From contig NZ_WFKJ01000015.1 of the NCBI RefSeq assembly GCF_009208075.1, positions 1 through 54,724 on the forward strand: a DNA stretch of 54,724 nt, written 5' to 3'. The notes below the pieces were generated by a model. It was not told where the DNA came from. It ran no database searches and saw only the letters and a program-made list of their open reading frames with translations. The stretch comes from Poseidonibacter ostreae. Lineage in GTDB: Bacteria > Campylobacterota > Campylobacteria > Campylobacterales > Arcobacteraceae. Numbering within the stretch: position 1 is the stretch's first letter; each line of letters opens with the position of its first letter. Below, piece by piece: positions 2,378 through 6,683 of the stretch. A program made the position numbers and the translations under genes.

Positions 2378-2655
2378 AAGGTGAAGTACATGAACAAAGA
2401 AAAACTAAAATAATACGAAGCAGATTTTTTAGGTTTTGAAGAATTGATAACTCTTCTTGGAAAAAATAAAGATTAAAATATAGTAGAAGTTATCAGCAAG
2501 TAGCAAAGGTTATATATAATTAATACAAATAGAAACTTTGGAGATATTGGCAACAAAATAATAGACACATGGTAATTATTTTTGAATGACAAAACAAGTT
2601 TAGCTAACACTAGTGGAATAAGTAGAGTTACACTAGGGAAGATTGAGCAAGGAAT
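2378..2655 (+). pseudogene. Scrambled relic of a hipA-hipB-X module
   Basis: This stretch of almost 300 bases has no open frame but aligns in pieces to the intact locus downstream. Bases 2381-2428 match the start of gene X (5226-5274), including its ribosome site and ATG, with an early in-frame TAA. Bases 2425-2531 match hipA 4448-4558, bases 2525-2599 match the 3' end of hipA (4897-4971, ungapped), and 2600-2654 match hipB (5054-5108, ungapped). Joints fall on short repeats: a T-run, ACAAATA (present once here, twice in hipA at 4552 and 4897) and TTAGC. The order X-hipA-hipB implies an ancestral tandem array that collapsed by deletions. Confidence 0.85.
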
Positions 2656-2660
2656 TATAA

Positions 2661-3722
2661 ATGAAAATATCAAAACTATATGCAAACAATGATAATTTTA
2701 AAACCATAAAATTTGATAAAGGTATAAATTTTATACTTTCTTCTTCTGATGGTGTTGGAAAAACTAGTCTTTTTAAATTAATAGATTTTTGTCTCTTAGG
2801 GGATAAACACTTTCTTGGGAACGAGCATTTTAAAGATTATATTTTTTATATAGAACTTCAAATCTCTTCAAATAGATATATTACGATTAAAAGACCTACT
2901 AAAAGTGGTAAGAATATCGAATTAAAAATCACAAAACAAAAATCCATGCTTTTAGATGAAATAAGATTTGATAAAAAAGGCAGTCTAGGTATTGCAAAAT
3001 CTTTTTTTGAAAATAAAGTTAATTATTCTATAAATAAGTTTAGAACATATATAACATATTTTTTAAGAGATGAATCCAACCAAAATGATGCATTTATATT
3101 AAACAAATACTCAACTCTTCATGAAATAGAGTATAAAACTGTTGTATCAAATCTTGTAGGTATTGATGGACGTAAAATAAGAAAAAAATATGAACTAGAT
3201 GAACTGATTAAAAAAGAAGATACTGATGCAACAACTTTAAAAACTGCACAGAATGATTTAGAAAAAATTATTGAAGAAAATAAAACTTTAGTTAACAGCC
3301 ATTTTATAGATAAACTTAAAGATAGTGTTGCTAAATATGGACACATTATATTAGATAAAGAAGTGACTTTTTCAATTGAGTTAAATACTTCAAATGATAT
3401 TGAATTTAGTTTAAAAGTGGAAAATGATGACAGTACTATAAAAAAACTTTTATGTTTTATCTTTGCCGCCGCATTAGCCGAAACTTATGTACAAAAAAGA
3501 CTTATCAAATTTGTTGCCTTTGATAGCCCTTTTGATGGAGATAATAATACTTATGAAGATGGTATTTATTTTGCAATTCATCAGTTACACAGAATTGGTA
3601 TTCAAACTATCATCACATCAAATGAAAATGCTATTCATAATTCTTCTAATTTATTAGAAATTAAAGATGAATATATGACTGATTATTTTAGTAATGATGA
3701 TAAATTGATGGGTGATTTTTAA
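2661..3722 (+). CDS. Short SMC/Rad50-like ATPase, DUF2326-like
   Basis: 353 residues. The N-terminus (MKISKLYANN, then FDKGINFILSSSDGVGKTSLF) gives a Walker A with Gly at 31 and 33, K34 and T35 but Ser where the first Gly is usual, as in DUF2326-type ATPases. A short charged helical section (about 175-215) replaces the long coiled coil of the family, and the C-terminal lobe has a Walker-B-like FVAFDSPFDGDN with D288. DUF2326 proteins are usually clearly longer, so this is either a minimal form or one that lost its coiled coil in frame. Its ribosome site (AAGGAA, 2649-2654) lies inside the hipB relic. Family assignment rests on motif pattern only. DUF2326 members are known from ABC three-component conflict systems. 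Confidence 0.55.
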   Translation: MKISKLYANNDNFKTIKFDKGINFILSSSDGVGKTSLFKLIDFCLLGDKHFLGNEHFKDYIFYIELQISSNRYITIKRPTKSGKNIELKITKQKSMLLDEIRFDKKGSLGIAKSFFENKVNYSINKFRTYITYFLRDESNQNDAFILNKYSTLHEIEYKTVVSNLVGIDGRKIRKKYELDELIKKEDTDATTLKTAQNDLEKIIEENKTLVNSHFIDKLKDSVAKYGHIILDKEVTFSIELNTSNDIEFSLKVENDDSTIKKLLCFIFAAALAETYVQKRLIKFVAFDSPFDGDNNTYEDGIYFAIHQLHRIGIQTIITSNENAIHNSSNLLEIKDEYMTDYFSNDDKLMGDF

Positions 3723-3725
3723 TCT

Positions 3726-3793
3726 TTAAATGATAAAGATACTTTACAATTTTAATAAATTATCTTATAATGATAACTAACTTTATCATTTAA
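3726..3793. promoter_or_regulatory. Probable HipB operator: 13-bp inverted repeat flanking the hipA promoter
   Basis: TTAAATGATAAAG at 3726-3738 is repeated in perfect inverted orientation as CTTTATCATTTAA at 3781-3793. A third half-site pair, TATC-N7-GATA at 3761-3775, lies between them on the -10 element. The spaced TATC/GATA layout recalls the TATCC-N8-GGATA operators of E. coli HipB. The downstream arm overlaps the hipA ribosome site (AAGGTG, 3792-3797). Autorepression by HipB is inference. Confidence 0.65.
3743..3771 (+). promoter_or_regulatory. hipA promoter
   Basis: TTTACA at 3743-3748 and TATAAT at 3766-3771 are separated by exactly 17 bases. The -10 lies inside the TATC-N7-GATA element and the whole promoter sits between the two arms of the 13-bp inverted repeat, about 30 bases upstream of the hipA ATG. 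Confidence 0.65.
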
Positions 3794-3801
3794 GGTGTAA
3801 A

Positions 3802-5016
3802 ATGAAAGATATAGAAGTAAAAATTGATAATAAAAAAATAGGGCAACTTTTTTTTGAAAAGAATAAAAATCAGTATGGATTTAATTATACTTTAAATTAT
3901 AAACCTATATCTTTAATCATGCCTTATAAAAACTCTACATATCTTTGGAAATACAAGCTTCATCCAATCTTTGATATGAATATTCCCGAAGGTTATCTTT
4001 TTGAAATATTTAAAAAGTATCTAACAAAAGAATATGGATATATAGACGATTTTCTAATATTTTCATATATTTGTACAAACATACAAAGTAGGCTTTCTTA
4101 TAAAAGTTTTATTGATAAAAAAGAGTTTTTTACACTTGATATGGATGATGTTTTAGAAAATGATTCAGAAGATAATTTCACAAAAATAGTGAGTGCTTTT
4201 TTAGATAAAAATGCAATTAGTGGAGTTCAACCAAAGACTTTAGCTATTTTAAAAGATAAAGAAAGTTTATCTTCAAAAGAGTATATTATTAAAACTTGGG
4301 GAGACGAATACCCTCAGTTAGCATTAAATGAATACTTTTGTTTAAAAGCAATAGAAAAAGCAGGTGTAATAATACCAAATCTAAAACTTTCTAAAAATAA
4401 TAAATTCTTATTAGTTGAGAGATTTAATTATGAAAAGGAAACTGATAGTTTTTTAGGGTTTGAAGAGTTAATTACATTACTTGGAAAAAATAAAGATGAA
4501 AAATATAGTGGAAGTTATGAACAAATAGCAAAAGTTATCTATAGTGTAACTACAAATAAAATTGAATCTATGATGAGCTTATATAAATTAATAATAATGA
4601 ATTATTTACTAAGAAATGGTGATGCACATCTTAAAAACTTTGGAATATTATATGATAAAGAGATCTCAAATATATGGTTTTCTCCAGCTTATGATGTTGT
4701 TAATACTCAAGTTTATTTTTATAAAGATAAACCAGCTCTTACAATGCACGGCAAAAAGTTATGGCTTGGGAAAAAAGAGCTTGTTAAGTTTGGTATAAAT
4801 GATTGTTATCTTTCCAAAGAAGTGGCAAATAGTGTTTATGATGAGTGTATTTTAGTTTTGATTAATTCAATAGATGAATTAAAAGAATATATCAAAACAA
4901 ATAGTGATTTTGAAGATATTGGTAGAAAAATGATAGATACATGGAAATTATCTTTAAGTGAAAAAACAAGTAAGGAGTTAGCAGTTGAAGTTATTCGAAA
5001 TTGGACAAAAAATTAA
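3802..5016 (+). CDS. hipA: HipA-family serine/threonine kinase toxin
   Basis: 404 residues, close to E. coli HipA length. It has a HipA N-terminal domain (about 1-105, with NIPEGYLFEIF) and a kinase-like domain. Visible motifs: the SGVQPK loop at 140-145 (the position of the autophosphorylated serine in HipA), nucleotide Lys K164 in EYIIKTWG, LLVERFN at 203-209, the catalytic loop NGDAHLKN at 272-279 with D274, and the metal-binding SPAYDVV with D298. All catalytic residues are intact, so it is probably active. E. coli HipA phosphorylates glutamyl-tRNA synthetase; the target here is unknown. The antitoxin gene follows rather than precedes and overlaps the 3' end by 32 bases. Confidence 0.9.
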   Translation: MKDIEVKIDNKKIGQLFFEKNKNQYGFNYTLNYKPISLIMPYKNSTYLWKYKLHPIFDMNIPEGYLFEIFKKYLTKEYGYIDDFLIFSYICTNIQSRLSYKSFIDKKEFFTLDMDDVLENDSEDNFTKIVSAFLDKNAISGVQPKTLAILKDKESLSSKEYIIKTWGDEYPQLALNEYFCLKAIEKAGVIIPNLKLSKNNKFLLVERFNYEKETDSFLGFEELITLLGKNKDEKYSGSYEQIAKVIYSVTTNKIESMMSLYKLIIMNYLLRNGDAHLKNFGILYDKEISNIWFSPAYDVVNTQVYFYKDKPALTMHGKKLWLGKKELVKFGINDCYLSKEVANSVYDECILVLINSIDELKEYIKTNSDFEDIGRKMIDTWKLSLSEKTSKELAVEVIRNWTKN

Positions 5017-5221
5017 AGAACTAAGAGAAGAAAAAAGACTAACGCAAGAAGAATTAGCAACTACTTGTGGCATCAGCAGAGTTACTTTAGGAAAGATTGA
5101 ACAAGGAAAACTAGGTAATACTTCTGTTAAAACTTTAGATTTAGTTTTAGCAAAACTAGGATTAGAGTTAGAGTTTAAAACTATAAATAATTTTGGTTTA
5201 CCAAGTCTAGATGAATTGTAA
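4985..5221 (+). CDS. hipB: HipB-like HTH antitoxin
   Basis: 78 residues with a Cro/CI-type helix-turn-helix at about 20-42 (TQEELATTCGISRVTLGKIE), typical of HipB. The start is a TTG at 4985, supported by AAGGAG at 4972-4977 with 7-base spacing. This places the start 32 bases inside hipA in another frame, so the two are probably translationally coupled. It should bind HipA, block its kinase activity and repress the promoter in front of hipA, where a matching inverted repeat is seen. Relic copies of this same helix-turn-helix coding segment remain at 2600-2654. Confidence 0.85.
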   Translation: MKLFEIGQKIKELREEKRLTQEELATTCGISRVTLGKIEQGKLGNTSVKTLDLVLAKLGLELEFKTINNFGLPSLDEL

Positions 5222-5234
5222 AAGAGTGAAGTAA

Positions 5235-5870
5235 ATGAACATAGAAAAACTAAAAGAGTATGAAACAGAATTTTTGGAACAATACCCAAATGGTTTTGAT
5301 GATAGAAACTTTTTTCCTACTATGAAAACTTTTAATCCTTTAAAACTTGAAGAGTCTGCAAAAGAGGCTTTAAAGAAAGAGAATTTTCAAAATCCAAGTT
5401 TAGTTGTAGATAACTTTTTTAAAGTAGTTCAAAAGTCAGTATTTGTATCACTATTTGATAAACTAAAACTAAAAGATATGATAGCAACACTTAATTCTTA
5501 TGAAAAAGATATGTTAAGTATTGAGATTTATGAGCTTTTATATGGAGATAAAAAAGCAGGCTTTGACGGACTTGTTGAGTTTTTAAGTGAGTATAAACTA
5601 GCAAAATGGACGATAATATCCGTTGTTCCATATTGTATAAATAGAGAGCAAGACTATTTTATAAAACCTACTACTACAAAAAATATTATCAAAACTTTTG
5701 ACTTAGAAGATTGTATTTACAAACCAAAACCTAGTTTTGAGTTTTATGATAAATATACAAAGTCACTTGATATTATGAAATCAAGTATTGATAAGTCTCT
5801 TAGTCCTGATAATGTAGGTTTTACAGCCTTTTTAAAAGTTGCTATGGAAAGTTATGAAGATTTTAAATAG
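5235..5870 (+). CDS. Hypothetical third gene of the hipA-hipB module (gene X)
   Basis: 211-residue soluble, acidic-helical protein that I do not recognise. It starts 13 bases after hipB stops, with a GAGTGA-type ribosome site, so it should be in the same transcript. It has no signal peptide, membrane segment or obvious catalytic motif. The mid-section has an IYELLYGDKKAGFDGLVEF stretch and a WTIISVVPYC segment. The first bases of a second copy survive in the relic at 2381-2428 joined to hipA sequence, so gene X belonged to the duplicated unit. It may be an accessory antitoxin or a target-related factor, but nothing in the sequence decides this. Confidence 0.7.
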   Translation: MNIEKLKEYETEFLEQYPNGFDDRNFFPTMKTFNPLKLEESAKEALKKENFQNPSLVVDNFFKVVQKSVFVSLFDKLKLKDMIATLNSYEKDMLSIEIYELLYGDKKAGFDGLVEFLSEYKLAKWTIISVVPYCINREQDYFIKPTTTKNIIKTFDLEDCIYKPKPSFEFYDKYTKSLDIMKSSIDKSLSPDNVGFTAFLKVAMESYEDFK

Positions 5871-5882
5871 CTTTTCTCAAAA

Positions 5883-6683
5883 CTATAAATCATAACTTTT
5901 TTTAAAAAGTTCACTTTTAAACTCTATATCATCTTTCAAGTTCAGTTGAAACATTACATTAGGATTAGTATTTATATCTTTTTTCTTTATATAATATTGA
6001 CAATCAACATTTGTCATACTTACTAAATATCTTGTACCAATATTAAAATTAGACAATCTTGACTTAGTTGTTAATAGATACTTATTATTAGTTTTCTTTA
6101 TTTGGAAATCTTTTGTTATTAACTCCAATTGCTCTTTAAAATCTGATATATCTTTTCCCGGTATTTGTGTATTCCCAGTTTTTTTTCTTCTAAACACTAA
6201 GCTAATATCAAAGTAATCCTCTATTTGATTTATTGGAATAAAAAGCAAATCATTTAAAGTTAATTTATTAAATTTATTTGAAGATATAATCCACTCAACA
6301 CCCTTATCTGTATATATTGTTTTAGCCCAATTAAATAATATCTCATTAGAAAGGTCAACATGAATAGTTGCATTATTTGTTCCCTTAAATAATGAATAGT
6401 TTGAATTTAAATACTTTATTATCTCTTGAGTATATTTATTGGATTCATTTTTACTTTTATCACAAAATATAAACTTACCATCAACTGGTTCTAATATTAT
6501 TTGTCCTGCTTGTGTTGGTCCAAATTTAGCTTCAATGTTTGTTATAAGTCGAAGTGATTGTCTTACTGTAATGTAAGATTGTGTTGAGTCAAAACCACCT
6601 TCCATTGCAAAACTAGCATCAAAATGATTGTTTAAAAAATCTGTTGCTTCATCTTGAAATATTTCCCACTTTTGTAATGCCAT
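5883..6683 (-). CDS. Possible PD-(D/E)XK nuclease-like protein
   Basis: 266 residues, no signal peptide. The N-terminal segment has the spacing of a PD-(D/E)XK fold: an amphipathic helix with E12, D32 in GGFDSTQSY, then E51-A-K53 in ITNIEAKFGPTQAGQ, with Q58 and Q61 behind it. The rest (about 95-266) is Lys/Asn-rich with no recognised motif. No partner methylase is adjacent. It converges on gene X with 12 bases between them, at the edge of the hip locus, so it may be a defence-type gene. The nuclease call rests on the D-EXK pattern alone. A non-catalytic DNA-binding role is also possible. Confidence 0.4.
   Translation of the reverse strand: MALQKWEIFQDEATDFLNNHFDASFAMEGGFDSTQSYITVRQSLRLITNIEAKFGPTQAGQIILEPVDGKFIFCDKSKNESNKYTQEIIKYLNSNYSLFKGTNNATIHVDLSNEILFNWAKTIYTDKGVEWIISSNKFNKLTLNDLLFIPINQIEDYFDISLVFRRKKTGNTQIPGKDISDFKEQLELITKDFQIKKTNNKYLLTTKSRLSNFNIGTRYLVSMTNVDCQYYIKKKDINTNPNVMFQLNLKDDIEFKSELFKKSYDL

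Follow-up and report, generated by a model that had tools for sequence, protein, structure and literature searches.

What is the 280-base stretch at 2376-2655 downstream of dapE in Poseidonibacter ostreae, and from which genes was it derived? It belongs to a 54,724-nucleotide stretch of contig NZ_WFKJ01000015.1 (assembly GCF_009208075.1), the whole of which was analysed and is called the window here. The first-pass annotation had described it as a collapsed tandem copy of the neighbouring hipA-hipB-X unit, decayed through short-repeat deletions. We compared the locus with 104 genomes of the family, one per species, in which relatives were found by protein and DNA similarity. With a probability of about 0.8, the stretch is a pseudogenised reverse-order type II cassette, consisting of operator, hipA and hipB, that once stood before the ATPase gene at 2661 and was deleted stepwise.

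Intact Genes of the Locus

The remnant is surrounded by the following intact features.

9-1109: dapE, upstream of a SatD-like gene, a membrane protein gene and then the remnant
2661-3722, + strand: ATPase gene, intact, 353 aa, DUF2326/SMC-like, with weak similarity to Lamassu LmuB / PDC-M68B; its ATG at 2661 lies directly behind the decayed cassette
3728-3801, + strand: promoter-operator of the intact hipAB (AAATGATAA ... TTTACA-17-TATAAT ... TTATCATT), the best promoter-like match of the region
3802-5016, + strand: hipA, intact, 404 aa; Pfam HipA_C (1.1e-40) and Couple_hipA (1.1e-8), both above cut-off
4985-5221, + strand: hipB, intact, 78 aa, helix-turn-helix; Pfam HTH_3 (3e-13) and NCBIfam couple_hipB (1.6e-10, below its cut-off)
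5235-5870, + strand: X, intact, 211 aa, predicted to be all-helical, family unassigned; present in 64 of the 104 genomes

The intact copy at 3802-5221 possesses the HipA kinase domains (Couple_hipA and HipA_C) of a hipAB type II module. The adjacent hipB, which overlaps the end of hipA, is predicted to encode its helix-turn-helix antitoxin, and one strong promoter-like site is located upstream of hipA. A conserved palindromic element lies on this promoter and precedes nearly all hipA genes of the group, which makes it a candidate operator for HipB. The 25-base core pattern of this operator gave 18 matches in the 104 genomes, mostly before hipA, and none in reversed-pattern controls. X had no match in Pfam, PADLOC or NCBIfam, and its AlphaFold2 model (pLDDT 84, 4 sequences, one of five models confident) had no match in the PDB at E 0.001.

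Other features were recorded around these genes. A 28-base tandem repeat (3.6 copies, 97% matches) occupies 1125-1224 between dapE and the SatD-like gene. A gene on the minus strand at 5883-6683 matched a PADLOC model of a type II restriction enzyme (3e-24), and it recurs beside the ATPase gene in the relatives G007, G010 and G039; this gene and the ATPase gene on the plus strand (2661-3722) may belong together. The same genome (G000) also contains a further pair of the hipB-hipA type in the usual order on contig C121 (L041, 6388-7613), of which hipA is split over two frames with a stop.

Composition and State of the Remnant

Pairwise alignment and BLASTN confirmed four segments chained in the order X start, hipA middle, hipA end and hipB middle, as had been noticed at the outset. 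All four lie far above chance, with 80-86% identity to the intact genes at 3802-5870 (BLASTN E 1e-11 to 1e-25). They are listed below with a joint that the earlier description had lacked; G009 is a sister genome introduced in the next section.

2376-2430, + strand: X scrap, comprising the leader and the first ~13 codons with an in-frame stop; 84% to 5221-5275 (X leader and start), E 6e-13
2425-2518, + strand: hipA middle scrap (corresponding to 4449-4543) with a one-base deletion and stops; the BLASTN alignment of 2425-2537 with 4449-4561 gave 83%, E 3e-25, and the next joint is best placed at 2518/2519
2519-2599, + strand: hipA 3′ scrap (corresponding to 4891-4971); 80% to the window's hipA, E 1e-18, and 83% to G009 hipA
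2600-2655, + strand: hipB middle scrap (corresponding to 5054-5108); 80% over 2600-2654, E 5e-11; 51/55 to G009 hipB and 44/55 to the window's own hipB
2649-2656, + strand: fourth joint, between hipB and the ribosome-binding region of the ATPase gene, via AAGGAAA (7-nt parental identity)

The assignment of the X scrap is specific, as its 55-mer matched X at 46/55 compared with 33/55 at the next best ungapped site anywhere in the 54.7 kb window. Only a small part of hipA and the middle of hipB survive, and no toxin or antitoxin open reading frame is left. Because stops occur in every frame and one base is deleted within the hipA middle scrap, the stretch at 2376-2655 is a pseudogene.

The X start, the first part of the hipA middle, the hipA end and the hipB scraps share one reading frame at 2390-2655, which would occur by chance in about 1 in 27 cases and was seen post hoc. 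This coincidence could be read as a functional chimeric small gene, or a regulatory RNA, built from toxin-antitoxin pieces. The shared frame is however broken by four stops, part of the stretch is frameshifted, and no such chimera was present in the relatives examined, so that this reading is very improbable.

The Orthologous Locus in Relatives

The corresponding locus shows the following arrangements among the family genomes.

G009 (uncultured Campylobacterales, L033/L072) and G026 (Aliarcobacter MAG, L112/L073): dapE-hipA-hipB-ATPase-X; intact hipA-hipB directly precedes the orthologous ATPase gene
G003 (L034): only an operator remains before the ATPase gene; the slot from there to X has a hipAB operator, a few hipA start codons, ~60 bases from the end of hipA and a fragment of a GNAT (acetyltransferase) gene
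G039 (L167) and G031 (L168): operator before the ATPase gene, hipB scraps beyond it
G010 (L145, reverse strand, 4969-6408 of the reverse complement): operator-hipB-ATPase, hipA deleted
G034 (L147, 160-519): operator-hipB, hipA deleted
G021 (L146, 6912-7033): operator and hipB tail, hipA deleted
G076 (L118): dapE-operator-X
G006 (L169): an operator, followed by almost none of hipAB
G011 (L109): hipA and hipB scraps after dapE, with an intact pair 4 kb further on

Thus, hipAB cassettes occur in two slots. The first is followed by the ATPase gene and the second by X; the second holds the intact hipAB in the window and scraps in G003. The operator, hipA scrap and GNAT scrap before X in G003 indicate that its second slot also once held hipAB. 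An operator with no hipAB between it and the following X or ATPase gene is found at ~5346-5409 of L118 (G076), ~4040-4100 of L033 (G009) and ~5603-5668 of L034 (G003), and in G076 and G009 it directly precedes X. In G006, the ATPase gene and another hipA-type gene flank the region at 1100-1340 of L169. This region contains an acetyltransferase gene from which 302 internal bases have been deleted, and an operator that has lost 39 bases and now forms a near-perfect palindrome.

At least two hipAB cassettes therefore stood side by side at this locus, as evidenced by the remnant together with the intact copy and by the two slots that are used or scarred in G003, G009 and G039. Several species have had several cassettes here and have lost them to varying degrees, the downstream genes being intact. 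The proposal that more than one hipAB cassette once existed was hence borne out by relatives with intact or decayed hipAB both before the ATPase gene and before X. For a past tandem array of one repeated unit the picture is mixed, as the gene that follows hipAB differs between the slots. X upstream of hipA was found intact in none of the 104 family genomes (one per species), and this order is seen only as the scrap in the remnant.

Affiliation of the hipAB Scraps

The material was correctly recognised as decayed hipAB and X, as the segment homology supports, and the remaining issue is which cassette it represents. Over 230 aligned bases, the hipAB part of the remnant is 87% identical to hipAB of G009 and 82% to the window's own intact pair. 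Of the 29 sites that separate these two, 17 show the G009 state in the remnant and 6 the local state, and the other 6 match neither. A maximum-likelihood tree of the same bases joined the remnant and G009 hipAB with 98% bootstrap. The AU test rejected a grouping of the remnant with the local copy (p = 0.045) and the SH test did not (p = 0.06), so that the preference for the G009-type copy over the local one, as judged from 230 aligned bases, is of marginal significance only. The X scrap shows the same tendency, matching G009 X at 39/43 and local X at 36/43. The same pattern of similarity could also have arisen if cassettes had undergone gene conversion or if the sequence had been imported from another strain.

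The position of the remnant agrees with this affiliation. Its hipB scrap runs at 2649-2656 into the ribosome-binding region of the ATPase gene (AAGGAA) and not into X. AAGGAA belongs to hipB (GAGCAAGGAA), and in relatives it is also the ribosome-binding region of the ATPase gene (e.g., ACAAGGAAGTATAAATG). As hipB is fused to the ATPase leader, the remnant occupies the exact place of the hipAB pair that precedes the ATPase gene. Since it is closer to G009 hipAB than to the local pair and abuts the ATPase gene likewise, it probably represents the ATPase-linked hipAB cassette in decayed form, and not the collapsed copy of the neighbouring hipA-hipB-X unit that had been proposed. A recent duplicate of the local hipAB is disfavoured by both the site patterns and the tree.

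Joints between the Scraps

The earlier description had placed the joints on short repeats, and this held clearly for only one of the four joints, which it had not named. At the joint between hipB and the ATPase leader, 7 nt (AAGGAAA) are shared; a random joint in these AT-rich parents shares at least 7 bases in about 0.2% of cases, so that P is about 0.002. The joint inside hipA had been assigned exactly to ACAAATA, which was only the second-best placement: the best fit is at 2518/2519, 6 nt upstream of this motif, where almost nothing is shared. Free placement scored 87 against 82 for ACAAATA with G009 as the parent, and 81 against 78 with the local parent. The 345-bp spacing given for this motif in intact hipA is correct, and the motif occurs there three times (4521, 4552 and 4897) instead of twice. 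As for the remaining two, the joint between X and hipA lies beside the T-run, a 7-base TTTTTAG, but is one mismatch off, and that between hipA and hipB has a single base in common, or TTAGC on the assumption that the lost copy read like the local one. When relatives were included, 10 of 12 joints shared no more than 2 nt, a measure limited by later mutations that blur the runs and later indels that shift the register. The microhomology, as read from present-day sequences, does not appear to carry the claim that short-repeat deletion is the general decay mechanism.

Origin of the X Scrap

The order X-hipA-hipB remains to be explained, as the X scrap is the only sign of a third unit. The leader of this scrap (TAAAAGGTGAAGTACATGAAC) is more similar to the local hipB-X junction (GTAAAAGAGTGAAGTAAATGAAC) than to the X leaders of G009 or G003. 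This resemblance favours a former hipAB-X unit upstream. Both the order and the leader would also be expected if a tandem duplicate of the local hipA-hipB-X had arisen in this lineage and its upstream copy had collapsed via short-repeat slippage. Such a duplicate is nevertheless unlikely, because the scraps of hipAB and of X resemble the G009 genes more closely than the local ones, hipB continues into the ATPase gene and not into X, and clear microhomology is confined to one of the four joints.

It had been argued that X preceding hipA requires a tandem repeat, a plausible conclusion but not a necessary one. In G068 and G076, X comes immediately or almost immediately after dapE, and in G075 it is preceded by a short insert. 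An X resident next to dapE is hence a possible source of the scrap: the hipAB-ATPase cassette would have been inserted or recombined to its right, the second X would have come with hipAB-X, and a three-unit array would never have existed. This variant of the ATPase-linked reading is a serious minority view, weakened by the single X on the far side of the cassettes in G003 and G009, the two closest relatives with the full set, and by the likeness of the scrap leader to the local hipB-X junction. We estimate that a third cassette has about an even chance of being the source of the X scrap, that a resident X is a less probable source, and that some other recombination accounts for the rest.

Proposed History of the Locus

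The four collinear segments, the gene order of G009 and G026, the tree and site patterns, the traces of both slots in relatives, and the stops and frameshift together lead to the remnant of an ATPase-linked cassette. We infer that successive deletions removed the operator and the greater part of hipA from this cassette and truncated hipB at both ends. One of these deletions would have fused hipB to the ribosome-binding site of the ATPase gene, thus leaving that gene intact, and on the upstream side the same chain of deletions would have joined the hipA scrap to the first codons of an X gene, supplied either by one more cassette (hipAB-X) or by an X resident next to dapE. The hipAB cassette of the second slot has remained intact in this genome. 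Loss of one copy may have been tolerable because the other copy still supplied the antitoxin, or because the toxin was lost together with the antitoxin. If a cell had two pairs and lost one of them, the HipB of the intact pair would protect it meanwhile, making the loss nearly neutral, and the deletions that survived would be those that kept the ATPase start.

A broader and rather doubtful speculation is that the operator-hipA-hipB set of the Arcobacteraceae is an expression module, repeatedly gained and lost before ATPase, X and GNAT genes. Deletion of the toxin would then leave the operator, with or without hipB, and the gene behind would stay under HipB-type control, the present remnant being one end stage.

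Comparison with Known Systems

Hotspots of toxin-antitoxin and defence genes undergo turnover of cassettes. The present locus is alike in having variable ATPase, X, GNAT and type II restriction-like genes between the conserved dapE, PhnA and AKR genes. The series found here spans many species and includes intact pairs, a deleted toxin with the antitoxin kept, an operator only, and scraps. Such a graded series at one orthologous locus is less usual, as intermediate stages of decay are seldom lined up, and it lets one ask in which order the parts of a toxin-antitoxin pair can be lost and whether its promoter passes to the genes nearby.

The reverse gene order hipAB was described in subclades of clades VI and VII of the HipA-homologous kinases (mBio 2021, PMC8262856). 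Compared by gene order and domains, those modules are alike in that a HipA_C/Couple_hipA kinase gene is followed by a helix-turn-helix antitoxin gene; the main text of that paper mentions neither Arcobacter nor decay. Decay of toxin-antitoxin loci is itself already known, and the window provides a new, well-documented example of it, an ordinary pseudogene remnant and not a new system. The chromosomal ccdO157 of E. coli and chromosomal copies of hok-sok decay in a similar manner (Mine et al. 2009, as cited in PMC2654758), in that a chromosomal locus degenerates in one lineage while relatives keep it. As far as that second-hand account goes, those are single loci that an insertion, a point mutation or a rearrangement has inactivated, whereas the locus described here has multiple slots for cassettes, which have left operators, lone hipB genes and scraps in different species.
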